From Sulfurospirillum sp. (GTDB taxonomy: Bacteria; Campylobacterota; Campylobacteria; Campylobacterales; Sulfurospirillaceae), in NCBI GenBank assembly GCA_014859685.1, contig JACUTU010000002.1, positions 186,001 to 250,000 on the forward strand: a stretch of DNA of 64,000 nucleotides. Reading direction: 5' to 3'. The notes under the pieces are model-generated. The model had not been told where the DNA came from. It saw only the letters and a program-made list of their open reading frames with translations, and did not search any database. Below, piece by piece: positions 22,859-39,084 of the stretch. How positions within the stretch are numbered: the stretch's first letter is position 1; each line of letters opens with the position of its first letter. The position numbers and the translations under genes are program-made.

Positions 22859-23873
22859 GATACGATATGATAAGATTCATAACCAGCATGTCCTTATTGC
22901 ACCAGAGAGACTCTATAGACCAAATATAGATTTTCAGAAAAAAAAGATTGTTACTAATCTAAAAAGATGCCCATTTTGTGAGGGCAATGAACATTTGACG
23001 CCTGCTGAAGTGTTTGCGATACGAGACAATAGTGCCAATACGCAAGGCTGGAAAACAAGAGTTGTGCCAAATCTCTACAAAGCAGTGCAAATAGAACTTG
23101 ATGGCGCTTCAAGACGAAATGGGATTTTTGAAGCTCGTGATGGCTTAGGTGCGCATGAAATCTTAATTGATTCGCCAAAACATAGTTGCGGTTTTGAGTC
23201 TCTCGGCGTTGCAGGGATAGAAAATTGGTTGCGTTCAATCATCATCAGAGTAGAAGATTTACAAAAAGATGGCAGGCTTATCTATGTAAGTGTTTTTAAA
23301 AATGTCGGAGAAAGAGCAGGAGCCACGCAAGAACACCCGCATACACAAATTTTAGCACTCCCGATGATGCCCAAAAATGAACTTGTTTTTTTGCAAAGAA
23401 ATGCTGATTATTACCGCTTGCATGGTCGAGGAATTCTTGAAGATGTTTTGCACAATGAATTGTTTTTTGAGAAAAGAATTCTCACTAGTGTGGGGGATTT
23501 TGTTGCTTTTTGTCCTTATGCAAGTGCTTTTTCTTTTGAAGTGATGATAGTTCCTACGCAAAATTTAAAGCATATTTTTAAATGTTCTAGAAAACAAGTG
23601 AATGATTTTGCTATTTTGCTAGAAAAAGTTTTTAGTATGCTAGCGCAGCAATTAGGAGTGTTTGATTATAATCTTGCTTTCTCTTTTGCTCCTTTAAATA
23701 GCAACTTTGAAAATGAAATTTTTATGCCCAATATAAACAAAAATTATCGTTTTAGTCTGCGTATCATTCCACGCATTTATACACTCGGAGGCTTTGAATT
23801 AGCTAGCGGAATGTTTATAAATTGTGTGAGTCCAGAAGAGAGCGCGAAGTTACTTCGAGGAGACAAGTCGTGA
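22851..23873 (+). CDS. galT: GalT-family hexose-1-phosphate uridylyl/nucleotidyltransferase
   Basis: The 340-residue HIT-superfamily protein has the metal-binding RCPFCEGNEHLTP, the catalytic EHPHTQILALP (His-x-His) and a C-terminal region with NKNYRFSLRIIPR. GalT moves UMP between UDP-glucose and galactose 1-phosphate; relatives act on ADP- or GDP-sugars. In this cluster, without other galactose genes except the distant galE, it may recycle sugar nucleotides for glucan synthesis. It starts inside the GH57 gene (ATG 22851) and its TGA overlaps the GTG of glgA (GTGA), so it is translationally embedded in the operon. Confidence 0.88.
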   Translation: MSEIRYDKIHNQHVLIAPERLYRPNIDFQKKKIVTNLKRCPFCEGNEHLTPAEVFAIRDNSANTQGWKTRVVPNLYKAVQIELDGASRRNGIFEARDGLGAHEILIDSPKHSCGFESLGVAGIENWLRSIIIRVEDLQKDGRLIYVSVFKNVGERAGATQEHPHTQILALPMMPKNELVFLQRNADYYRLHGRGILEDVLHNELFFEKRILTSVGDFVAFCPYASAFSFEVMIVPTQNLKHIFKCSRKQVNDFAILLEKVFSMLAQQLGVFDYNLAFSFAPLNSNFENEIFMPNINKNYRFSLRIIPRIYTLGGFELASGMFINCVSPEESAKLLRGDKS

Positions 23874-25237
23874 AAGTGTTATTTTGTGCTAGCGAAATCT
23901 ATCCTTACGCCAAAACAGGTGGGCTTGGAGATGTCGGCGATGCATTACCAAAAAGTTTGCAAAAATACGCAGATGTAGCAGTAGCAATGCCTATGTATAG
24001 TTTTATCTCTTCTGATGATTTGCAAGTTTTTGCAAGTTTTTCATTGCAGATGGGCGGTATAGACTATGAGATTGAGATTTATAATACACAAAATTATTAC
24101 TTCATCAAAGCACCGTTGCTGAGTAGCACTGAAAATCTCTACGGTAATGCCCTCGGTGATTATGCTTCCAACGATATCCGCTTTGGTTTGTTTGCAAAAG
24201 CAATCGTTGAACTTTGCACATTGATGAGTGTTGATATCTTACATGTAAATGATTGGCATAGTGCTTTAGCCCCACTTTTTATCAAAGAAAAAGGCTTACA
24301 TGTAAAGAGTGTCTTGACGATTCATAACCTTGCATATCAAGGTATTTTTTCAAAAGAATCATTGCAAAGACTTGGGCTTGATAATAGCTATTTTCGTATG
24401 GAAGCGTTAGAGTTTTATGGCAAAATAAATTTTCTCAAAGCGGGCATTGCATTTTGTGATGCACTCACAACCGTGAGTCCAAGTTATGCACAAGAGATTC
24501 TCACGCCAGCTTTTGGGTGTGGGCTTGATGGTTTTTTACAGGCACACAAATATAAATTACACGGTATTTTAAATGGTATCAATGCAGATTTTTTTGATCC
24601 AAAAACAGATAGTTTTTTAGCTTATAATTATGATGCAAATCATCTTGAAGACAAACGCAAAAACAAGGTTGCATTCTTAAAAAAAATCAAACTCAAAGAT
24701 CCGAGAAAACCTCTTTTTATAGTGCTTTCTCGTTTAGTGCCACAAAAAGGAATTGATCTCATTTGCAAAGCACTTCCAGAAATTTTAGCGCATAAAATCA
24801 ATCTTTACATCCTTGGAGATGGCGAGGGTGATATGATTTCACAACTCACACAAGCTGCTTTGCGGTATGAAAATTTTGTATTTGAAAATTGTTATGATGA
24901 AAGCCTTTCGCATCAAGCCTATGCGGCGGCCGATTTTGTATTGATGCCCTCTTTGTTTGAGCCCTGTGGACTTGTGCAAATGATTGCTATGCGTTACGGT
25001 GTTATCCCTATCGTTTTTGCAACCGGAGGATTGAGGGATAGCGTTTTTGAGGATCAAGATAAGTGCGGCAGAGGCGTTGTATTTACCAAATACTCCAAAA
25101 AGCAGTTTCTTTTAGCTTTGCAAAGAGCACTTTTGTTGCAAAAAGATGATGCTCTCAAAAAAGCCAATATGGCGTGTGATTTTTCATTTCAAAAGAGTGC
25201 AAAAGCATACTTTGAAATTTATAAGGCACTCGTGTGA
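23870..25237 (+). CDS. glgA: Glycogen/starch synthase, paralog 1
   Basis: The 455-residue GT5 enzyme starts (GTG 23870) VKVLFCASEIYPYAKTGGLGDVGDALP, with the KTGGL sugar-nucleotide motif. HVNDWHSAL and the C-terminal MPSLFEPCGLVQMIAMRYG follow, with the E-x7-E-type catalytic region. It extends alpha-1,4-glucan from ADP- or UDP-glucose. GAGGAGA at 23857-23863 and GTGA overlap with galT decide the start; the frame extends back to 23822 but would give a basic non-homologous leader. It is clearly diverged from the second glgA (26057-27502): VQMIAMRYG here against NQIYSLRYG there, so substrate or role may differ. Confidence 0.93.
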   Translation: MKVLFCASEIYPYAKTGGLGDVGDALPKSLQKYADVAVAMPMYSFISSDDLQVFASFSLQMGGIDYEIEIYNTQNYYFIKAPLLSSTENLYGNALGDYASNDIRFGLFAKAIVELCTLMSVDILHVNDWHSALAPLFIKEKGLHVKSVLTIHNLAYQGIFSKESLQRLGLDNSYFRMEALEFYGKINFLKAGIAFCDALTTVSPSYAQEILTPAFGCGLDGFLQAHKYKLHGILNGINADFFDPKTDSFLAYNYDANHLEDKRKNKVAFLKKIKLKDPRKPLFIVLSRLVPQKGIDLICKALPEILAHKINLYILGDGEGDMISQLTQAALRYENFVFENCYDESLSHQAYAAADFVLMPSLFEPCGLVQMIAMRYGVIPIVFATGGLRDSVFEDQDKCGRGVVFTKYSKKQFLLALQRALLLQKDDALKKANMACDFSFQKSAKAYFEIYKALV

Positions 25238-26055
25238 AACTATGTATCGATGCTGGAGGAACTTATTTTCGTTATGAACTTTATGAAAATAACCAGCAAA
25301 TTGGTGCAAAAAGTGAAAAAAATGAGGGCGTTGGAATCTGTTTTTGGATCGAAAATATCCTTCAACAATATCCGAAAATCCAAATTATCGCCGTAGGTTA
25401 TGCCGGTCAAGTAAAAGATGGAATTATCCTCGCTTCCCCAAATATAACAATCGATAAAGCAAATATAAAAAGCTATTTTGAACAGAAGTATGGGGTGAAA
25501 TTTTTTATACAAAATGATCTCGAATGTGCCGTGCTAGCTGAAGCAAATTTTCATAAAAGCCCTGATATCTGTGCCTTATATCTAGGCAGTGGCATGGGAC
25601 TTGGCGTTATTAGTGGTGGCAAGCTTTTGCAAGGATTTGGCGGTGTTGCTACTGAAATTGGTCATATTCCTTATAAAAAAAGCCCCTTTACATGTGGCTG
25701 TGGCAGAGATAATTGCATCGAACTTTTTGCTTCAGGCATTGGACTTTTGGGATTTAAAAAATATTTGAGTCTTGATGCAAATCTTACTTTGGAGCAGTTG
25801 CGAGTAGCTCAAAGTTCATTGTATACACAGTTTGAAGAGGCACTTTTGTATGCGGTTGGAACTGTGATCACACTTTTTAATCCGCAGATTTTAGTTCTAG
25901 GTGGCGGTATTTTTGCAAGTGACAGTGAACTTTTTGCAATAGTATCGGAAAAATACGCAAATTTTACCTTGCTAGTGAGTGCAAAACAAGTTACAATCAA
26001 AAAAACACAGATACAAAATGCCGTCTTATCGGGTACGAGATTATTGGGAGTTTAA
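25234..26055 (+). CDS. ROK-family glucokinase
   Basis: The 273-residue ROK sugar kinase has N-terminal phosphate loop CIDAGGTYFRYELYE, IQNDLECAVLAEA with the catalytic Asp, GSGMGLGVISGGKL, and the ROK zinc motif EIGHIP...CGCGRDNCIELFASG. It would phosphorylate glucose released by the GH57 enzymes to glucose 6-phosphate. The GTG start at 25234 overlaps the glgA TGA (GTGA). The next gene, the second glgA, follows after one base (ATG 26057). Confidence 0.88.
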   Translation: MKLCIDAGGTYFRYELYENNQQIGAKSEKNEGVGICFWIENILQQYPKIQIIAVGYAGQVKDGIILASPNITIDKANIKSYFEQKYGVKFFIQNDLECAVLAEANFHKSPDICALYLGSGMGLGVISGGKLLQGFGGVATEIGHIPYKKSPFTCGCGRDNCIELFASGIGLLGFKKYLSLDANLTLEQLRVAQSSLYTQFEEALLYAVGTVITLFNPQILVLGGGIFASDSELFAIVSEKYANFTLLVSAKQVTIKKTQIQNAVLSGTRLLGV

Positions 26056-26056
26056 A

Positions 26057-27502
26057 ATGCAAGAAAAATTAAAGATAGCTTTCATAGCTTCAGAGGTTGT
26101 GCCATTTGCTAAAACAGGTGGGCTTGCTGATGTGGCAGGAGCTTTACCAAAAGCGCTTAAAAAATTGGGGCATGAGATTATTGTGATTATGCCACGGTAT
26201 TATAAGATAGACAAGACACAACTTACAAAATTACCTGAACCTCTTGGTGTGCCGATGGGATCTATGGGTGAGCTTTGGGCGGCAGTTTATACTACGATGT
26301 TACCAAATAGCACAGTGCGTATTTATTTTATAGATTATGAACAGTATTTTGGCAGAAGTGGATTGTATGAGGAAAACAATATCTCTTTTGCAGACAATGG
26401 TGAACGGTTTGTTTTTTTTACAAAAGCGGCGATGCAACTTTGTAAAATGCTCTCTTTTGTGCCTGATATTTTTCACGCAAATGATTGGCATAGCGCAAGC
26501 GTTGCGATACTTGCAAAAACTAGATTTGTACATGATTTTGCACACGCAAAAACAGTTTTGACGATCCACAATATGCAGCATCAAGGTATTTTTCATAAAG
26601 GTTTGATGAATTTACTTGAGATAGGTTGGGAGCATTTTAATTCTTGCGAGTTTGAAAGTATGGGTGGACTCAATATGCTCAAAGGTGGCATCATGCACGC
26701 TGATGCTGTAACGACGGTCTCGAGTGGCTATGCAGCAGAAATTCAAACACCAGATTTTGGCTTTGGACTCGATGGACATCTTAGAGCGCATAGCCAAAAA
26801 ATATATGGCATTTTAAATGGTGTTGATTATGACGAATGGAATCCATCAAAAGATAAATATATCGCGAAAAATTTTGATGTGGATGCTATGAAGGGTAAAA
26901 ATGTGTGCAAGCGAGCATTGCAAAAACATTTTGGACTCAAACAAAAATACGGCGTACCTGTTATCGGATTTGTGGGCAGATTTGCAGAGCAAAAAGGCAT
27001 AGGACTTATCGCCTCGGTTATATCTGGCTTGCTAGATATGGATGTGCAGATTGTGATGCTAGGTGCTGGAGAAAAATGGGCCGAAGGATTTTTCTCACAC
27101 GAGGCATATCATCGAGAAAATTTTGGTTTACATGTAGGTTATAGCGAGGAATTGGCACATCAGATAGAAGCTGGTTGTGATCTGTTTTTGATGCCATCTC
27201 TCTTTGAGCCATGTGGACTCAATCAAATCTATAGTTTGCGTTATGGTACGCTACCGATCGTGCGTGCAACGGGTGGGCTTGATGATACGATAGAAAACTA
27301 TGATGCAAAAAACAATAGCGGCAATGGCTTTAAGTTTTATGAAGCTTCAAGTGATGCGCTGTACCATACTGTAAAATGGGCTTTAGATTTGTATTTTGGC
27401 GATAAAGAAGCATTTGAGCAGTTACGCACTCGTGCGATGCGTGCACATTTTAGCTGGGAAGATGCGGCGAAAAATTATGTGGAGGTGTATCGTGGCATAT
27501 GA
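26057..27502 (+). CDS. glgA: Glycogen/starch synthase, paralog 2
   Basis: The 481-residue GT5 glucan synthase starts KIAFIASEVVPFAKTGGLADVAGALP, the standard GlgA N-terminus. Further motifs are HANDWHSASVA, GGLNMLKGGI, GILNGVDYDEW, and MPSLFEPCGLNQIYSLRYG, which is closer to canonical GlgA than paralog 1. It transfers glucose from ADP-glucose to the growing chain. TGGGAG at 26045-26050 supports ATG 26057; an upstream in-frame ATG at 25979 lies inside the ROK gene and is rejected. Its last codons overlap the start of glgB. Confidence 0.94.
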   Translation: MQEKLKIAFIASEVVPFAKTGGLADVAGALPKALKKLGHEIIVIMPRYYKIDKTQLTKLPEPLGVPMGSMGELWAAVYTTMLPNSTVRIYFIDYEQYFGRSGLYEENNISFADNGERFVFFTKAAMQLCKMLSFVPDIFHANDWHSASVAILAKTRFVHDFAHAKTVLTIHNMQHQGIFHKGLMNLLEIGWEHFNSCEFESMGGLNMLKGGIMHADAVTTVSSGYAAEIQTPDFGFGLDGHLRAHSQKIYGILNGVDYDEWNPSKDKYIAKNFDVDAMKGKNVCKRALQKHFGLKQKYGVPVIGFVGRFAEQKGIGLIASVISGLLDMDVQIVMLGAGEKWAEGFFSHEAYHRENFGLHVGYSEELAHQIEAGCDLFLMPSLFEPCGLNQIYSLRYGTLPIVRATGGLDDTIENYDAKNNSGNGFKFYEASSDALYHTVKWALDLYFGDKEAFEQLRTRAMRAHFSWEDAAKNYVEVYRGI

Positions 27503-29615: not shown

Positions 29616-30182
29616 ATGTATGGTAAACTTTTTTCACTCTTTGTATTTCTTTCTTTGTCTGTTTTTTTCAGTGGGTGTTCTAGCGATGAAGTTCCAACTC
29701 CAAAGCTCTACGCACAAGGAGGATTCAGTACTTTTACCCTTCCTGAAGATACAGAAACTAGTCTTATCAAAGATCCAAGCAGTATGATAAAGTTTTGTGG
29801 CGCACGGGAAAGTGATGCTGTGAGTGCTAAACAAAATGGTTTTTCGCTAGGTTTTGGTATTGGAGGTGCTCAAGAATCTGTTGGTGCAACAAACGGCGGT
29901 GGCGCACTCTCTTTAGGTGGACGCGATCCGTTGGTGCTTATAACGCGTGAATTTCTGTACCGTGTTTGTGAACTCTCTTTAAATCACAATTTAAACAAAC
30001 AAGAAACGATTGAATTATACAAGTACTTTATCGAAAAGCTACTTGTTATGGCACCGCTTACAAAAGCAGATGGTGCTGCTTCTGCTGGTATCGCGCCCGT
30101 TGCTCCCACAAGCAGTGAGAAAAGTTCTAAAAGTAAAGATGATACAAAGGATGATATCTTTGATGATAAAAGCGGGTTTTAA
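29616..30182 (+). CDS. Lipoprotein of unknown function
   Basis: The 188-residue product has a lipoprotein signal peptide ending in the lipobox VFFSGC (Cys about residue 21), followed by SSDEVPTPK. The central part is glycine-rich (FSLGFGIGGAQESVGATNGGG), then a helical segment EFLYRVCELSLNHNLN. The C-terminal ~35 residues are low-complexity (SSEKSSKSKDDTKDDIFDD). The strong TAGGAGG before the ATG and a good promoter suggest substantial expression. It has no recognised family. A second exported protein follows after 50 bp, so the two are likely co-expressed and may act together at the cell envelope. Their position between the glycogen cluster and the Entner-Doudoroff operon may be chance. Confidence 0.8.
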   Translation: MYGKLFSLFVFLSLSVFFSGCSSDEVPTPKLYAQGGFSTFTLPEDTETSLIKDPSSMIKFCGARESDAVSAKQNGFSLGFGIGGAQESVGATNGGGALSLGGRDPLVLITREFLYRVCELSLNHNLNKQETIELYKYFIEKLLVMAPLTKADGAASAGIAPVAPTSSEKSSKSKDDTKDDIFDDKSGF

Positions 30183-30232: not shown

Positions 30233-31570
30233 ATGAAACGAACCATATTTAAATTCTGTTGCATTTTATGCCTCATCAGCTCTTTTGCGTATGCACAAAG
30301 CGATGCTACTTTTTTGGAAGCTGTGCATAAACTATTTGATCAAGAAAAAGTTTTTCAAGTTGAATCCAAACGACTCATGAAAAACACACAAGAGATTGAT
30401 CATGCTCTTATCAATTTTGAAACGCTACTCAATGCTGAACATAAAACAACACAAGCACTTATTACTTTAGATACAGCGCTTGGAACAATTGAAAAAGTTC
30501 TCGTTATAGCTGAACTAGTTCCTCAAACTAAAGAAGAAGCTCAAATACTCAAAAAAAATATCGCAATTGTGCATAAGCCTGTTGCAACTGCGGCAAAAAA
30601 GATGTCTCAAATAGATGCCAAGATTGTTCCGTTGCAAAAAGCTACTCACAAAACTGAAAAAGTAACTTCCGCTCTTGTAAAAGTAGAAACAGGATTTCGC
30701 GAAATGAGTCTTCGCTATTTTGATGCAGTTGGTTTGGTTGCGCAGTGTGAACACGATGATACAATTTTAGGTATTGTAAACCATTCATATGTAGTGTATG
30801 TGGGCATTGATAAAGAGGTCAATCATATCAATAATACTTATGATAATATCAAGCATATTCCACAAAAAAGTCTGCACGCTTTGAGTGTAGAATTTGAAAA
30901 ATTAGCAAAATTGGAAGCACCATTGCTCAATTTGCATAAAAAACTTGTGCCACTTTATCACGCACTCAACGACTTAGAACATGTTCTAAATCAACACATC
31001 GGAGTAAAACCAGCTTATCCATGTGGGGTAAAAACTTGTCATCATGAAGTATCCTATCCATGTGGGGTAAAAAAATGTAAAAAATTGGGTGCATCTTATC
31101 CGTGTGGTGTAAAAACTTGCACAAAAAAAGCTCCTTATCCATGTGGGGTAAAAACTTGTCATGTCGAGATCTCTGTCTCAGTTGCAGATGCAATCAAAGG
31201 GGCGGATATGATCGAACATAAAATTGAGTCAAGTGTAAGTTCATTTGTTTACAAGGCTTTAAAGGAAGTAGGATTGGGGTCTATCGTAAAAGATCTTGAA
31301 CATCAAGCACAAAACCTTCTCAAACCAGTTTTAAAAAAGCTCAATCTCTCCATCGATACATCTTTGCCATCTTTAGATATCAATCTTAATTTAGCAATGA
31401 TTGAAGCGGGAATTGCTGATCTGGAAAAATTTGAAAATGAACTCATTAAGTTAGGAAAAATCCTTGACATGCAAAGTCCTACTTTTGCACCATACACGCA
31501 AAAACTTGAAGTTCTCAACGCAGATATCAAAGCAGTATTAGGTTCACCGCGTTGTAAAAATATAAAGTAA
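30233..31570 (+). CDS. Exported coiled-coil protein with four YPCGVKxC repeats
   Basis: The 445-residue protein has a Sec signal peptide (FCCILCLISSFAYAQ). Residues ~25-250 are predicted helical/coiled coil, rich in Ala, Lys and Glu. Residues 262-310 hold four units beginning YPCGVKTC, YPCGVKKC, YPCGVKTC and YPCGVKTC at 13-14-residue spacing. The rest (about 320-445) is again helical. Units 1 and 4 read CGVKTCH, a C-x4-C-H pattern known as a heme site in some multiheme cytochromes; units 2 and 3 lack the His. Metal binding or disulfide formation are alternatives. AAAGGAAAAAC precedes the ATG. No family is recognised, so the function is unknown. Confidence 0.82.
   Translation: MKRTIFKFCCILCLISSFAYAQSDATFLEAVHKLFDQEKVFQVESKRLMKNTQEIDHALINFETLLNAEHKTTQALITLDTALGTIEKVLVIAELVPQTKEEAQILKKNIAIVHKPVATAAKKMSQIDAKIVPLQKATHKTEKVTSALVKVETGFREMSLRYFDAVGLVAQCEHDDTILGIVNHSYVVYVGIDKEVNHINNTYDNIKHIPQKSLHALSVEFEKLAKLEAPLLNLHKKLVPLYHALNDLEHVLNQHIGVKPAYPCGVKTCHHEVSYPCGVKKCKKLGASYPCGVKTCTKKAPYPCGVKTCHVEISVSVADAIKGADMIEHKIESSVSSFVYKALKEVGLGSIVKDLEHQAQNLLKPVLKKLNLSIDTSLPSLDINLNLAMIEAGIADLEKFENELIKLGKILDMQSPTFAPYTQKLEVLNADIKAVLGSPRCKNIK
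31016..31159 (+). repeat. Four in-frame DNA repeats coding YPCGVKxC
   Basis: Units start at 31016, 31055, 31097 and 31136 (spacing 39, 42, 39 bp). Units 1 and 4 share the same 24 bases, beginning TATCCATGTGGGGTAAAAAC; unit 2 differs at a few bases and unit 3 uses synonymous changes. Near-identity at DNA level suggests recent or ongoing copying within the gene. Confidence 0.92.
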
Positions 31571-31636
31571 TTTTTTTGAAGATTCTCAAGATGTTGGACC
31601 CGCTAAATCTGAGACTTCAAGAACAAAAAGTATCAA

Positions 31637-31670
31637 ATTGCTTTACATGTAAGCTTACATGTAAAGCAAT
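31637..31670. terminator. Perfect 34-bp palindrome between convergent genes
   Basis: ATTGCTTTACATGTAAG is followed directly by its exact reverse complement. It holds two copies of the iterated palindrome TTACATGTAA. It lies between the stop of the YPCGVK gene (31570) and the stop of pgi (31682, minus), so it probably ends transcription in both directions. Short T-runs occur beyond each side but not immediately. Confidence 0.6.
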
Positions 31671-31681
31671 CCTTGGTTGTT

Positions 31682-32884
31682 TTATCGCATCAATTTTTGT
31701 TTTAAGATGATCTTTCCTGCTTCAACGCCGGGTTGGTTGTAGGTATTGATACCCAATAGCTTACCTACTAAAGAAGTGAGAATTTCGAAGCTGAACATTA
31801 ATTTTGCTAGATTGTATGCGTCAATTTTCTCAATCACGATCATATCGCATGGGATATCTTTGAGGTCTGTGATGGCTTGCATAGTTGCATCTGCTTGGTG
31901 ATTGATGAGTTCACTAAATGCTAAGCCATTAAGCATATCAAGTTCCTCGAGTCCCTCAAGAGAAGTGTGCGGTATCGCACTTTTGTCTCCAAAATCTTTT
32001 ATCTTGATAAATGTAACTGTCTTATCTCGCTTACCCTCCATGATGAGTTGCAAAAAGGAGTGCTGATCAACAGGTCCTTGGATGCCTATTGGAGTGAGTC
32101 CTTTGTGTTTTTTGGCACTGTCGATTTTTCCTAAACTTTCTCCCCACAATTGCACAAACCATTTGTTAAATCCATCAAATAGTATAGAATAACTAAAGAT
32201 AACATTGATGCTGTATTCGTGTGAATTTTCTGCGATAAACCTTGCTTTGTTTACGAGCGGTGTAAATGTTTCGCCTTGCGTAAAGAATGTGTTATAAAAA
32301 TCTTTACAGCCTGCAAGCAAGTCATCTATATCGATACCAACAATAGCCAAAGGCACGAGTCCTACGGTGCTAAATACAGAAAATCTTCCACCAACGGATT
32401 TTGGAATTTCAAAAGAGTTGATACCATTTTTTGTAGCAAATATTTGGAGTTTGCTATCGCTTTCTGTGATAACTAAAGAGTTTTTGTTGTCGATATGTAC
32501 TTTTGTGCTGAGGTATTTAAAAATCGTTACCGTCTCGGTTGTTGTGCCTGATTTGCTGATCACGATAAAAAGTGTATCGGCTAGATCAATGCTTGCTATG
32601 CGGCCATTTATATCGATAGGATCGGTTGATTCAAAAAAGATGAGTTCTTTTTCAAAATGATTTGTTTTGCGTAAAAAATCATATATTGCCAAAGTTCCGA
32701 GATTGCTACCGCCAATGCCGATAACGGCGATATATTTTTGTGTAACTTGTTTTGCATACTTTTTTATCTGGGATACATCAGCAAAAGGCAGGCGATAATA
32801 CCCGATTTGTTCTTGTTCCTGTTTTAAACTCTCAAGGAGTTCAACATCGCTTTGTCTTGGTGTGTAATTGTTTGAATAACTCAT
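31682..32884 (-). CDS. pgi: Glucose-6-phosphate isomerase
   Basis: This is a 400-residue enzyme, the short form typical of Campylobacter (about 406) rather than the 549-residue E. coli type. Motifs are VIGIGGSNLGT, VISKSGTTTET, GGRFSVFSTVGL, and near the C-terminus QPGVEAGKI with a conserved catalytic Lys region. It interconverts glucose 6-phosphate and fructose 6-phosphate, linking the Entner-Doudoroff operon to gluconeogenesis and glycogen. The start at 32884 (MSYSNNY) follows AAGGA; an upstream extension to 33028 overlaps pgm and is rejected. It is the last gene of the operon, 10 bp after pgm. Confidence 0.95.
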   Translation of the reverse strand: MSYSNNYTPRQSDVELLESLKQEQEQIGYYRLPFADVSQIKKYAKQVTQKYIAVIGIGGSNLGTLAIYDFLRKTNHFEKELIFFESTDPIDINGRIASIDLADTLFIVISKSGTTTETVTIFKYLSTKVHIDNKNSLVITESDSKLQIFATKNGINSFEIPKSVGGRFSVFSTVGLVPLAIVGIDIDDLLAGCKDFYNTFFTQGETFTPLVNKARFIAENSHEYSINVIFSYSILFDGFNKWFVQLWGESLGKIDSAKKHKGLTPIGIQGPVDQHSFLQLIMEGKRDKTVTFIKIKDFGDKSAIPHTSLEGLEELDMLNGLAFSELINHQADATMQAITDLKDIPCDMIVIEKIDAYNLAKLMFSFEILTSLVGKLLGINTYNQPGVEAGKIILKQKLMR

Positions 32885-32894
32885 GGTTTTCCTT

Positions 32895-34529
32895 TTATAA
32901 AATTGCTTGTGAGACGATCTGTTGTGCCTCTTTTTGAATCTGTGCGAGATGTTCGCTTGAGATGAAACTTTCTGCATAGATTTTGTATATATCCTCAGTT
33001 CCGGATGGTCTAGCTGCAAACCAGCCATTTTGAGAACAAACTTTGATGCCCCCTATGGGCGCGTCATTTCCTGCTGCGTTTGAAAAAATATGTTCTATCT
33101 TTTCACCCGCAAGTGTTGTGCTTTGTATGTCTTGTGGCTTGAGATTTTTGAGTTTTGCTTTTTGTTCGCTTGTGGCAACGGCGTCAATTCTGGCGTAAAA
33201 AGCTTTGCCGAATTTCTTTTCAAATTCTTGGTAGATGAGTGCAGGATCTTTTTGCATTACAGCGGTGATCTCAGCGGCCAAAAGATTTAAGATGATGCCG
33301 TCCTTGTCAGTTGACCACGCACTCCCATCAAAGCGTAAAAAAGAAGCTCCAGCGCTTTCTTCTCCGCCGAATCCCAAAAATCCACTATGCAAACCCTCTA
33401 CAAACCATTTAAATCCCACAGGCACTTCGTAAAGGTTTCTGCCCATATCGCTTATGACTCTATCGATCATCGAACTTGAAACTAAAGTTTTGCCGATAGC
33501 ACTATCTGCGCTCCATTTTGTTCTGGTGCGTAAAAGATACCAAATAGCAACACTGAGATAATGGTTTGGATTCATAAGTCCTGCACTTGGAGTGACTATG
33601 CCGTGTCTATCAAAATCAGGGTCATTGGCAAAAGCAAGATCAAAGTTGTCTTTGAGTGCCACAAGTGAATGCATCGCATATGGCGAGGAACAATCCATGC
33701 GGATTTTACCATCATGGTCACAGCACATAAATGAAAAAGTTGGATCGGTGTATTGGTTGGTGATAGCTAAATCAAGTCCATAAACCTCATTGATCTTTTG
33801 ATACACTGCAATGCCAGATCCGCCTAGAGGATCAACAGCTAATTTTAAACCAGCATTTTTAATAGCTTCGATGTTTATAATCTGTGGCAATTGCGCTACA
33901 TACGGTGTTACAAAATCAAACTCTTGTACAAAACCGCTCTGCATTGCTTCTTGGAGTGAAACTCTTTTGACATCTTGCAAGTTGTTTGCGATGATTTCAT
34001 TGGCGCGTTTTTCTATGATTGAGGTTACATCTGTATCGGCAGGACCACCATTTGGGGTATTGTACTTAAAACCGCCATCACTTGGGGGATTGTGTGATGG
34101 GGTTATGACAACGCCATCACTCGTAAGTTTAGAAGTTTTGTTAGCTTCAAGGATAGTAAAAGAGATGAGCGGTGTTGGAGTGTAACCGTCGTTTAAGGCA
34201 ATCTTACATGTAACCTCATTGGCTGCAAAAACTTCCAAAGCACTCATCTGAGCAGGAGCTGAGAGTGCGTGTGTGTCTTTGCCTATAAATAGGGTTCCTG
34301 TTATATTGTTTTCTTTACGATATTCGCATAATGCTTGTGAAATAGCTAGGATGTGTGTTTGATTGAATGATTTTTTGAGTGCATTTCCTCTGTGCCCAGA
34401 TGTACCAAAACTTACCTGTTGTGTTTTGTTTTTGCAATCTGGTGTGAGGGTAAAATAAGCACTGATGAGATTTGGAATATTTTCAAGGATCTCTTTTGGT
34501 GCCACCTTTGATGCAAATGAATGGATCAT
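32895..34529 (-). CDS. pgm: Phosphoglucomutase (alpha-D-glucose phosphate-specific)
   Basis: The 544-residue enzyme matches the E. coli Pgm type. FGTSGHRG is near the N-terminus, VVITPSHNPPSDGG carries the catalytic phosphoserine, DPDFDRHG binds Mg, and GGEESAGASF recognises the substrate. It converts glucose 1-phosphate (from glycogen phosphorolysis) to glucose 6-phosphate and back, so it connects the glycogen cluster with zwf. Its ATG overlaps the eda TGA (ATGA). Unlike the mutase-like domain at 16318-18822, all motifs are intact here. Confidence 0.96.
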   Translation of the reverse strand: MIHSFASKVAPKEILENIPNLISAYFTLTPDCKNKTQQVSFGTSGHRGNALKKSFNQTHILAISQALCEYRKENNITGTLFIGKDTHALSAPAQMSALEVFAANEVTCKIALNDGYTPTPLISFTILEANKTSKLTSDGVVITPSHNPPSDGGFKYNTPNGGPADTDVTSIIEKRANEIIANNLQDVKRVSLQEAMQSGFVQEFDFVTPYVAQLPQIINIEAIKNAGLKLAVDPLGGSGIAVYQKINEVYGLDLAITNQYTDPTFSFMCCDHDGKIRMDCSSPYAMHSLVALKDNFDLAFANDPDFDRHGIVTPSAGLMNPNHYLSVAIWYLLRTRTKWSADSAIGKTLVSSSMIDRVISDMGRNLYEVPVGFKWFVEGLHSGFLGFGGEESAGASFLRFDGSAWSTDKDGIILNLLAAEITAVMQKDPALIYQEFEKKFGKAFYARIDAVATSEQKAKLKNLKPQDIQSTTLAGEKIEHIFSNAAGNDAPIGGIKVCSQNGWFAARPSGTEDIYKIYAESFISSEHLAQIQKEAQQIVSQAIL

Positions 34530-35164
34530 AACTCGCCTCCTTTTTTGAGAGATTGTAGGGATTGTTTACATAATTTTGTGATGGTATCAAATTCTTTGTT
34601 GGCGATAAGTTTTGTATCACTAAGCCAAGTACCACCTACGGCTAAAACATTGCTAAGAGCTAGAAAATCGTGCATATTTTCCATCTTTACGCCCCCTGTT
34701 GGGCAAAATTTTACATCTCCAAAAGGTCCAGCAAATGCCTTGAGTAAAGCAACACCACCTAGAGCCGAGGCCGGAAAAAGTTTGCAGTTATAAATCCCAG
34801 CACTCATCGCAAGCATAATTTCGCTAGCACTCGCAACGCCAGGGATAAAAGGGTATGCTGTTTTTGCTGCGACATCAAGTAACTCTAATGAAATTCCTGG
34901 AGAGAAAACAAACTTTGCTCCCGCATCGATAGCTTGTCTAAATTGCAAGGCATTGCATACAGTTCCAGCACCTAGATACATGTGAGGTACCTCTTTTGCG
35001 ATGAGTTCCATAGCTTCAAGTGCGCAGGGTGTTCGAAGGGTTAATTCTAAGATGTGAATGCCACCATCATATAAAGCTTGTGCCAATGCAACGGCATCAT
35101 TTTTATCACTAAGACTTACCACTGGTATGATCGGTGATATACTCATAATCTCTCGTGCGTTCAT
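34526..35164 (-). CDS. eda: 2-keto-3-deoxy-6-phosphogluconate aldolase
   Basis: This is a 212-residue class I aldolase. HILELTLRTP supplies the catalytic Glu, YLGAGTV and FVFSPG follow, and CKLFPAS carries the Schiff-base Lys; PTGGV is the phosphate-binding loop. It splits KDPG to pyruvate and glyceraldehyde 3-phosphate. The start at 35164 (MNAREIM) is preceded by GAGAGGAAAG and overlaps the edd stop (ATGA). The longer frame to 35197 is not needed. Confidence 0.96.
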   Translation of the reverse strand: MNAREIMSISPIIPVVSLSDKNDAVALAQALYDGGIHILELTLRTPCALEAMELIAKEVPHMYLGAGTVCNALQFRQAIDAGAKFVFSPGISLELLDVAAKTAYPFIPGVASASEIMLAMSAGIYNCKLFPASALGGVALLKAFAGPFGDVKFCPTGGVKMENMHDFLALSNVLAVGGTWLSDTKLIANKEFDTITKLCKQSLQSLKKGGEL

Positions 35165-36975
35165 GCTCTTTCCTCTCCTGGTGTTTGAAATACGCAAGCT
35201 CCTTCGCTAGCTTGTGAAACGAGTGAGCGGATTGGTGCGAAAAGTTCTGTGCCGCAGCCATATTTTTGTTGTTTATATGTGCCAATTTTTCTTACATGTA
35301 AGAGATTTTCTTCTACATGTAAGTGTACTTCTTTGTTGGTGAAATCAAGTGTAATATGATCCCCGTCTTGTATTTTTGCTATAACACCACCATTTGCAGC
35401 TTCTGGACTCATATGGATAGCACTCGGCACTTTTCCAGAGGCACCTGACATGCGTCCATCGGTGATAAGTCCTACTTTGTAGCCGAGATCTTGTAGTGTG
35501 CCTAAAGCTGGCAATAGCCCGTGCAATTCAGGCATACCATTTGCTTTTGGTCCTTGATAACGAACAACAGCTATGAAATCCTTGTGCAGTTCTCCGGCCT
35601 TAAACGCTTTTTGCAATGCTTCTTGTGAATCAAAAACAACAGCAGGCGCACTGATGTAGAGCTGTTCTTTTTTTAAGGCTGAACTTTTAACTATGCTTGT
35701 GCCGATATTTCCATGAAGAATTTGGATCCCACCTTGTTTATCAAAAGGTGTATCAATCGTGGAGATAACTTGTGTATCTTTTGAATAGATCTGCTCGTGA
35801 GAAAAAATAACATCCGTACCTTGCAAAATAGGTTCACAAGCAAACCGTTGCAAGCCAAAACCAACAACAGTTTGCACATCTTGATGTACCAATCGAGCCT
35901 GTAAAAGTTGTGCGATGATAACACCCATGCCACCTGCGTCACGAAAGTGATTTACATCTGCGCTACCATTTGGATAAAGTTTGCACAGCAATGGTGTGAC
36001 TGATGAAATTTGATCAAAATCTTCCCACTTTAAAATGATGCCAGCCATCTTTGCCATGGCGATGAGGTGGATCGTATGGTTGGTTGAACCTCCTGTTGCC
36101 ATAAGTCCGACGATAGCATTAACAAAACTTTTTTCATCGATTATTTTATACAGAGGCCATGGATCTTGAGCTTGTATGTTTTGAAGCAATGTGAGAGTTG
36201 CGTGTTTTGTGAGGGCGTCTCTAAAAGGAGTATTTGTATTGATAAAGGAGCTATTTGGCAGTTGCAACCCCATCATTTCTAAAAGCATTTGATTTGAATT
36301 TGCAGTACCATAAAATGTACATGTACCGCAACTATGATATGATTTTGTTTCTACTTCAAGTAAGGCAGTTTCGCTCACTTTGCCTTGTGCAAATTCTTGT
36401 CTTATTTTTGATTTTTCACTATTTGATATACCTGAGGGCATAGGTCCTGCTGGGATAAAGATCGTTGGAAGATGTCCAAAACTAAGTGCTCCCATGAGCA
36501 ATCCAGGGACAATTTTATCGCAAATTCCTAAATATATCGCTCCATCAAAAACATTATGCGACATCGCAATTGCAGTTCCCATGGCGATATTGTCTCTGCT
36601 AAAAAGACTCAGTTCCATCCCTTTTTGTGATTGTGTGACTCCATCACACATAGCAGGAACGCCTCCGGCAACTTGTGCTGTAGCTTTATGATCTTTGAGC
36701 GTTTGTTTGATGAGATCTGGATAAGTTTTATAAGGGGCGTGTGCAGAGAGCATATCATTGTAAGCCGAAACTATGGCGATATTTGGACTGTTTGTAAAAG
36801 CAAATGAATTTTTTTTCTCCGCATTCATAGAGGCTACACTGTGTGCTATATTGCCACATTTGAGTGTTTTTTTGCCATTTTGTGTAGCTTCTTGCATACG
36901 AGAAAGATATACGGTTCTACTTTGTTGTGATCTTTTGATGATCGCATCAGTGACTTGTTGGATTGTGGTATTCAT
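35161..36975 (-). CDS. edd: 6-phosphogluconate dehydratase
   Basis: The 604-residue IlvD/Edd-family enzyme contains [47 protein letters not shown], and [17 protein letters not shown] with cysteines for the [4Fe-4S] cluster; [14 protein letters not shown] lies near the C-terminus. It converts 6-phosphogluconate to KDPG, the defining step of the Entner-Doudoroff pathway, which is uncommon in Campylobacterota. Its ATG overlaps the pgl stop (ATGA) and its stop overlaps eda. Confidence 0.97.
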
Positions 36976-37643
36976 ATCATATAAACCTTTATGTTTTTTA
37001 GAGTTTGGCGCAATACACTAAGGATTGGATATTTGTATATATCACCACTTGCAAGAGCATTTTCAAGCACCTCTTTTTTCTTTTTTCCCTCTACATGTAA
37101 GAAGATATACTGTGCGTTTAAAATCGTTTTGAGCCGCATGCTTATACGCTCATATGGAGTGTTTTGTGGTGTAATATGGATGTAAAAATCTGTACTTTGT
37201 AAGTTGTACGCTTCTGGTAGTTTTTCATGATTTGGAAAAAGCGATGCGGTGTGTCCATCGTCGCCCATACCCAAAATAAGCACATCAATATCTGTAATCT
37301 TTGGTGCATTTTTAAGCGATGATGGTATAGACATATCATCATAAAGCGGGATAAAAGTAGCACTTGCAGCTCGTTCTTGCAAGAGATATCGGCGTACAAG
37401 GTGTGCATTGCTGTCACTACTTTCGCTAGCAACACATCTCTCATCAACTAAAATGATAGTAACATTTTGCCATGCAATCGCACTTTTGGCTAGTTTTTGA
37501 AAAAGTTTGATAGGTGTTTTTCCACCAGAAACCGCCAAAGTGGCATGATCTTTCTGTTGCACGGCAAGATGCAATTTTTCAGTTATCTCATATGTAAGTG
37601 CTTCAAGGCAATTAACATCCATCTTCATGCCAGTTTCTTCCAT
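36972..37643 (-). CDS. pgl: 6-phosphogluconolactonase (DevB type)
   Basis: The protein has about 220 residues. LAVSGGKTPIKLF is the sugar-phosphate loop, IILVDERCV and LGMGDDGHTASLFP are typical of 6PGL/NagB-fold lactonases. It hydrolyses 6-phosphogluconolactone made by Zwf. The start is uncertain: ATGs at 37643, 37628 and 37622 are all within the end of zwf (overlap 32, 17 or 11 bp) and none has a strong Shine-Dalgarno; MKMDVNCLEAL (37628) looks the most natural N-terminus. The stop overlaps the edd start. Confidence 0.92.
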   Translation of the reverse strand: MEETGMKMDVNCLEALTYEITEKLHLAVQQKDHATLAVSGGKTPIKLFQKLAKSAIAWQNVTIILVDERCVASESSDSNAHLVRRYLLQERAASATFIPLYDDMSIPSSLKNAPKITDIDVLILGMGDDGHTASLFPNHEKLPEAYNLQSTDFYIHITPQNTPYERISMRLKTILNAQYIFLHVEGKKKKEVLENALASGDIYKYPILSVLRQTLKNIKVYMI

Positions 37644-39084
37644 CTTTTGCGATGAGACTTACAGCGGCACTTGGGCCATCCGTACCTGCTGGATATGTTT
37701 TCATGATACTTTGGTTTGCTTGCCAACCTTGAATGATAGCATCTGCCCACTTCCATGCTTCTTCAACTTCATCAAGTCGCATAAAAAGAGTTGGATTGTT
37801 TTTGATGATATCAAGCAAAAGTCGCTCATAAGCTTCATGCTTGATCACTTTTGTTGTGTCATGTGAGTTGAGTTCTAAATCAACCTCTTGCAGACGCATA
37901 TCTGAGCTAATGCCAGGGATTTTATTCATCATTTTGAGATTTATACTCTCATTTGGTTGCAAAGTAATGACGAGTTTGTTTTCACTCAAACATTTGCCCT
38001 CATGAGGAAAAATTGAATGGGGAACGGATTTAAAATGTATAACAATCTCTGAATTTTTTTCACGCATCCGCTTGCCACTGCGTATATAAAATGGTACTCC
38101 ATTCCATCTCCAATTGTCTATATCAACACGAATGGCCGCAAATGTTTCAGTAGTGCTTCCCTTTATTTCTTCACTATCAAGATATCCAGGTACTGCTTCG
38201 CCTTGTGAAAATCCTTTTGTGTATTGCGCGCGAACAGTTTTTTCCTCGATATCGCTTGGTGTCATCTTGCGGAATGAACGCAAAACTTTAACCTTTTCAT
38301 CGCGAACATTGTTAGCATCAAGCGAACAAGGCGGCTCCATAGCAACTAAACACAAGAGTTGGATTAGGTGGTTTTGGATCATATCACGCATGGCTCCGTA
38401 TTTGTCATAATACCCAGCCCTACCCTCTACGCCAACGCTTTCAGCGACAGTGATTTGTATGTGATCAACATCTCTTGAACCCCAAACGGGCATAAATATA
38501 CGGTTGGAAAATCGCAATGCCATGATGTTTTGTACGGTATCTTTTCCCAAATAATGATCAATGCGAAATATTTGTGATTCACTAAAGTATTGCAAAACTT
38601 CTTGATTGATTTTGCGTGAAGTATCCAAACTTCTACCTAAAGGCTTTTCGAGTACAACTCTGCTTTGTTCGGTGATGAGATCGCAAGTATGTAAATTTTG
38701 GGCTATAGAGCCAAAAAAATCAGAAGCAGTGGAGAGATAGTAGATTCGTTCACGATCTGTTTGCATATCAAGAAATATTTTCAGATTTGCATAGGAAGAT
38801 GGATCTTGAAAGTCAATATAAGCTATTTCTAATTGTTCTGAAAAATCTGCAAAAAAATCTGCATCAAAAATATCAGCACTGATAAATTCCTCTAATTTTG
38901 ATTGCATAAGTGCAATGTGTGTTTCTCGATTCATCGGGCGTCTAGAAATTGAGATAATGCGACTTTGCTTATCGATAAATCCAGCAAGTCGAAGGTTGTA
39001 AAGGGCGGGCATCAATTTTCTAAAAGCCAAATCCCCGTGTCCGCCGAAGATTACTATGTCAGTTCTGTGGGAACTTGTTTCCAT
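37612..39084 (-). CDS. zwf: Glucose-6-phosphate 1-dehydrogenase
   Basis: The 490-residue enzyme contains the NADP-binding loop IFGGHGDLAFRKLMP (GGHGDLA in place of the more common GASGDLA), the active-site RIDHYLGKDTVQN with its catalytic His region, and FYIRSGKRM. It oxidises glucose 6-phosphate to the lactone and makes NAD(P)H. It is the first gene of a six-gene minus-strand operon, zwf-pgl-edd-eda-pgm-pgi, all overlapping or within 10 bp. It is transcribed divergently from the ChePep-like gene across a ~200-bp region. Confidence 0.97.
   Translation of the reverse strand: METSSHRTDIVIFGGHGDLAFRKLMPALYNLRLAGFIDKQSRIISISRRPMNRETHIALMQSKLEEFISADIFDADFFADFSEQLEIAYIDFQDPSSYANLKIFLDMQTDRERIYYLSTASDFFGSIAQNLHTCDLITEQSRVVLEKPLGRSLDTSRKINQEVLQYFSESQIFRIDHYLGKDTVQNIMALRFSNRIFMPVWGSRDVDHIQITVAESVGVEGRAGYYDKYGAMRDMIQNHLIQLLCLVAMEPPCSLDANNVRDEKVKVLRSFRKMTPSDIEEKTVRAQYTKGFSQGEAVPGYLDSEEIKGSTTETFAAIRVDIDNWRWNGVPFYIRSGKRMREKNSEIVIHFKSVPHSIFPHEGKCLSENKLVITLQPNESINLKMMNKIPGISSDMRLQEVDLELNSHDTTKVIKHEAYERLLLDIIKNNPTLFMRLDEVEEAWKWADAIIQGWQANQSIMKTYPAGTDGPSAAVSLIAKDGRNWHEDGC

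Follow-up and report, generated by a model that had tools for sequence, protein, structure and literature searches.

A putative disulfide-laddered beta-hairpin of YPCG modules in an exported coiled-coil protein of Sulfurospirillum

A gene for an exported protein with four YPCG-x-K-x-C modules marks the window, the 64,000-nucleotide stretch of Sulfurospirillum sp. DNA analysed here. In the reading preferred (probability about 0.6), the modules form an oxidised cystine-ladder beta-hairpin on an exported helical/coiled-coil protein. A single long, cationic, antiparallel hairpin would protrude from the middle of the protein. Its modules would be aligned two per strand, so that the cysteines face one another and may be joined by nested cross-strand disulfides (C264-C309, C269-C304, C277-C296, C282-C291). 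The signal peptide would direct the protein through Sec to the periplasm, where a Dsb system would oxidise it. The cysteine-repeat feature is real, rare and well conserved, and is a bacterial novelty as far as the searches reach; it is also a variant of a module already known from animals. The features of the region are the following.

29616-30182, plus strand: predicted lipoprotein ORF, 188 aa, with a lipobox-like ...VFFSGC-S (lipobox-like Cys in three homologues)
30233-31570, plus strand: cysteine-repeat ORF, 445 aa, ATG start, exported
30233-30295, plus strand: signal peptide, residues 1-21, cleavage expected after AYA (read from the sequence; Y-A at this place is common to the homologues)
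30305-30991, plus strand: N-terminal helical/coiled-coil part, residues 25-253, with one invariant cysteine, Cys172 (AF2 helices, alignment)
30995-31180, plus strand: predicted beta-ribbon, residues 255-316, with all four modules inside (AF2 strands)
31016-31039, plus strand: module 1, YPCGVKTC (C264, C269), residues 262-269, followed by H
31055-31078, plus strand: module 2, YPCGVKKC (C277, C282), residues 275-282
31097-31120, plus strand: module 3, YPCGVKTC (C291, C296), residues 289-296
31136-31159, plus strand: module 4, YPCGVKTC (C304, C309), residues 302-309, followed by H
31181-31567, plus strand: C-terminal helical part, residues 317-445, with one invariant cysteine, Cys441 (AF2 helices, alignment)
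31635-31672, no strand assigned: terminator-like inverted repeat, stem of 15-17 pairs, between the cysteine-repeat gene and the convergent pgi (consensus scan)

The earlier note, made from the sequence, had described an exported protein with four YPCGVK-x-C modules spaced 13-14 residues apart and nearly identical in DNA, two of them reading CGVKTCH, and its description holds. The ORF starts with a signal peptide (MKRTIFKFCCILCLISSFAYA-Q), and the modules begin at residues 262, 275, 289 and 302, at distances of 13, 14 and 13 residues. They agree in 19-24 of 24 nucleotides, modules 1 and 4 being identical, and CGVKTCH is found in modules 1 and 4 only. The pattern YPCGVK-x-C matches the 2.1-Mb genome at four places, every one of them in this gene, and the reversed pattern matches nowhere in the same genome, so the array is not a product of chance. 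A looser module pattern has 14 matches in 399 genomes of the order, 10 of which reside in genes of the cysteine-repeat family. The other four (L037, L038, L040, L042) are single motifs, never set within a repeat, and were rejected as chance; two of them overlap a dehydratase-like gene in another reading frame, and the other two lie in short frames that encode no recognisable protein. Scanning the whole genome for C-x4-C pairs at module spacing gave many unrelated matches.

The cysteine-repeat family counts four members, the window protein included. Homologues of 55% identity were found in 2 of 100 related genomes (G028 and G039); a third listed match, L008, is a chance one, with 32% identity over 65 residues and internal stops. 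A further homologue, L017 (4773-6029), 72% identical, resides in Helicobacteraceae bacterium CG2_30_36_10. Two scans of genome contigs were made, the first giving no homologue, the second three. None was added by 397 genomes of the phylum, plasmids, phages and viral contigs. In particular, tblastn of the protein against plasmids and phages gave no match, and the viral contigs matched neither the protein, nor a module pair, nor the neighbouring lipoprotein. Weak phylum-wide profile matches (L015, L016, L027, L030) were judged to be chance from their translations, the remaining ones being known loci. A match in a Pseudoalteromonas plasmid, also due to chance, consists of one YPCGSK lacking the second cysteine, and the module motif has only weak matches in phages (E at least 2).

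Codons of the window gene are under purifying selection, as judged from its comparison with L017 (dN/dS about 0.10; dN 0.126, dS 1.216); synonymous sites are close to saturation relative to the other homologues. In the four-module homologues L009 and L010, modules 1 and 2 differ in residues from modules 3 and 4 (A-D/K-I and T-K-T/M), unlike those of the window, all of the V-K type. This uniformity, and the DNA identity of modules 1 and 4 in spite of nearly saturated synonymous divergence between genomes, suggest a recent homogenisation or re-duplication of modules in the window lineage. L017 has two modules only. Its first module keeps the Ile and passes into the module 3 spacer (TKKAP), as would be seen if this copy had either lost two modules or never acquired them. 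An in-frame TAA lies just before the modules, and the part downstream is still conserved; L017 may be a decaying copy or pseudogene, or contain a sequencing error.

The window protein has cysteines at 264, 269, 277, 282, 291, 296, 304 and 309, in addition to the invariant C172 and C441, which may pair with each other. The spacing is 5-8-5-9-5-8-5 in the window protein, 5-8-5-13-5-8-5 in L009, 5-8-5-(4-5-4)-5-8-5 in L010, and 5-8-5 in the two-module L017. Cysteines paired from the outermost inwards share one common sum in each of the four members, that is, they are nested. Equal modules with two cysteines each yield part of this symmetry for free. What speaks for a hairpin is that the outer gaps are constant at 8 while the central gap alone varies (9, 13, 13), and that L010 (4203-5567) has a fifth cysteine pair in the putative hairpin turn (CKKNCGITTCHYPC, itself C-x4-C-H), set symmetrically inside the central gap (4-5-4), a placement expected by chance in about 1 case in 11. 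The innermost four cysteines of L010 read C-x3-C-x4-C-x3-C, a spacing also known from tachyplesin. Cysteines outside the signal peptide are even in number (10, 10, 12), and DsbB is encoded above cut-off in the window genome.

AF2 models, built on an input of three sequences, have no residue at pLDDT 90 or above. In the model of the window protein (mean pLDDT 65, pTM 0.41) helices flank two long strands, residues 261-284 and 287-310, with pLDDT of about 73-81 in blocks of 261-310. The L010 model (mean pLDDT 68, pTM 0.54) has strands at 265-291 and 294-320, and low confidence at the hairpin ends. In both models the region thus becomes two strands of equal length with a short connecting turn, flanked by helical parts, which would make one long hairpin. 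The turn falls one residue ahead of the centre of cysteine symmetry in both models (285.5 vs 286.5 in the window protein, 292.5 vs 293.5 in L010), hence the topology is supported and the register is not. Foldseek gave no match at E of 0.001 or less for either model, and a sequence search of solved structures no significant match.

A similar module occurs at the C-terminus of the animal Out-at-first protein (OAF). The Pfam model OAF_C (PF22873) matches the whole window protein at E 5e-4; whole-protein scores over the three homologues compared are 20.3 (the window protein), 18.1 and 10.7 bits, all under the gathering cut-off of 29. The isolated 52-residue repeat segment scores 28.7 bits (E 1.2e-6), just below this cut-off. 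None of nine shuffles which preserve the cysteine positions matches OAF_C at E of 1 or less, hence the match rests on more than cysteine spacing. Profile positions 23-53 match pairs of the bacterial YPC modules. Published work portrays the C-terminus of OAF as an extended hairpin whose two strands run antiparallel and show a 'nested arrangement of conserved cysteines', four disulfides being predicted (PMC9714404). For the bacterial proteins, the nesting had been computed before reference was made to this description. Nested cysteines are thus common to both, and the extended antiparallel hairpin described in OAF is predicted, in models of low to medium confidence, in the bacterial protein. In contrast to OAF, where the module makes the C-terminal mature peptide, four modules sit midway in a helical bacterial protein; the OAF N-terminal/BRICHOS domain has no Pfam match in the three homologues, which have a helical part in its place. 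Since whole-protein scores stay under the cut-off and the N-terminal domain is missing, membership in OAF_C is not claimed. The link may reflect shared ancestry, transfer or convergence. We know of no established role for animal OAF itself. The view that no described family has this repeat has to be amended, because OAF_C holds such modules and is matched below threshold.

The cysteine-repeat gene has a companion. The predicted lipoprotein ORF ends 50 bp upstream of it, and the two may be co-transcribed. Within the bacterial family the lipoprotein gene was found only in three genomes which carry the cysteine-repeat protein. In each of them the two genes are neighbours of like orientation, 50, 27 and 76 bp apart; the L017 locus is without the lipoprotein gene. 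The lipobox-like cysteine reads SGC, TAC and SAC in the three homologues. The lipoprotein has no match in Pfam or NCBIfam. Its core is strongly conserved (ALSLGGRDPLVLITRE..YRVCE.SLNHNL). In the window the pair is set between glgB and pgi, within a block of genes for glycogen and Entner-Doudoroff metabolism, and in the stretches of two relatives compared (19 and 16 kb) no other ORF matches the window; for these reasons the pair looks like an accessory unit. The surrounding genes have features of their own. Two different glycogen synthase (GlgA) genes (23822-25237 and 25979-27502) lie close to each other next to glgB, on either side of a ROK-family kinase gene. The genes pgi, pgm, eda, edd, pgl and zwf form the minus-strand block 31682-39084; they make up a complete Entner-Doudoroff set, here in a genome related to Sulfurospirillaceae. 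The pgi of the window shares only 45-49% identity with its counterparts in the five family members tested. The inverted repeat that separates the convergent genes is near-perfect, and likely a bidirectional terminator.

The same cysteines may be read in other ways. Each module could close its own disulfide loop, C-x4-C being paired within the module, to give a string of four small loops. In its favour are the invariant C-x4-C spacing, the gain or loss of modules as entire units (L017 has two, the other members four) and the ease of explaining a repeat of self-contained units; the nested spacing, too, is in part a consequence of having two-cysteine modules at equal distances. Separate loops, however, leave unexplained the constant outer gap of 8 around a variable centre, as well as the symmetric extra pair of L010, and both AF2 models feature two long strands rather than four short hairpins; this reading is rather unlikely. 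The earlier note had proposed that the array binds heme or a metal, or forms disulfide rungs, and the last is the part best supported, by the nested cysteines, the length change confined to the centre, the symmetric extra pair, the two models, the signal peptide and DsbB. Binding of a metal, for instance zinc coordinated by two modules at a time as in a zinc finger, would suit repeated cysteine pairs amid lysines, and zinc-finger models give weak, non-significant matches to the segment (TFIIIA, E 0.045). The best zinc-finger match is at 14.2 bits, far under the cut-off of 27, C-x2-C and conserved histidines are missing, and the protein is exported from a cell endowed with DsbB; metal binding lacks positive support and is highly unlikely. 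The sequence C-x4-C-H is a rare form of c-type heme attachment, and, as in cytochromes of this kind, it is found in an exported protein, in modules 1 and 4 and in the extra pair of L010 (CGITTCH). Unlike in those cytochromes, the histidine varies among modules and homologues: it follows the second cysteine in 2 of 4 modules of the window, being absent from modules 2 and 3, in none of the four YPCG modules of L010 (Y, K, T and S are found instead), and in one of the two of L017. No cytochrome family or model is matched, and attachment of heme is exceedingly improbable.

A different alternative concerns function, and is compatible with the ladder: the cysteine-repeat protein might be a secreted or contact-dependent antagonist, and the lipoprotein its partner or immunity protein. 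Two adjacent exported genes of patchy distribution, with differing neighbours, fit this role, as does the charge of the repeat segment (9 K/R vs 2 D/E in the window protein). Disulfide hairpins of animals are often antimicrobial, and tachyplesin, protegrin and arenicin are cationic single hairpins with cross-strand disulfides (PMC13001179), an architecture which the bacterial protein is predicted to share. These peptides are short and free, of 17-22 residues (PMC13001179), unlike a hairpin of about 50 residues held within a protein of 445. The hairpin stands mid-protein with no processing site shown, no toxin family is matched, helical toxins and colicin Ia come up in Foldseek at insignificant scores (best E 5e-3, TM 0.18), and patchiness suits many accessory genes. 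A role as antagonist is clearly unlikely.

In the preferred reading, the cystine-ladder hairpin would be kept rigid by its disulfide staples and would work together with the neighbouring lipoprotein, which it may contact, as an envelope spike or tether; taken alone, this role is suggested only tentatively. More broadly, and as a possibility that is itself doubtful, the exported coiled-coil protein, partnered by a lipoprotein of its own, may carry as its rigid spike an expandable cystine-ladder ribbon of OAF_C-type YPC modules, which would be gained, lost and homogenised as units. This would be an envelope structure of Campylobacterota not described before, derived from an animal module by transfer across domains or reached by a striking convergence. 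If the reading is right, a disulfide hairpin of the OAF kind would be available in a bacterial protein, a form expected to be easy to express and dissect. Since the number of modules varies between homologues, ladders with fewer or more rungs could be built to probe the function of the ribbon. An exported two-gene unit without known family would also be added to a group of environmental bacteria, the sulfur-cycling Campylobacterota.
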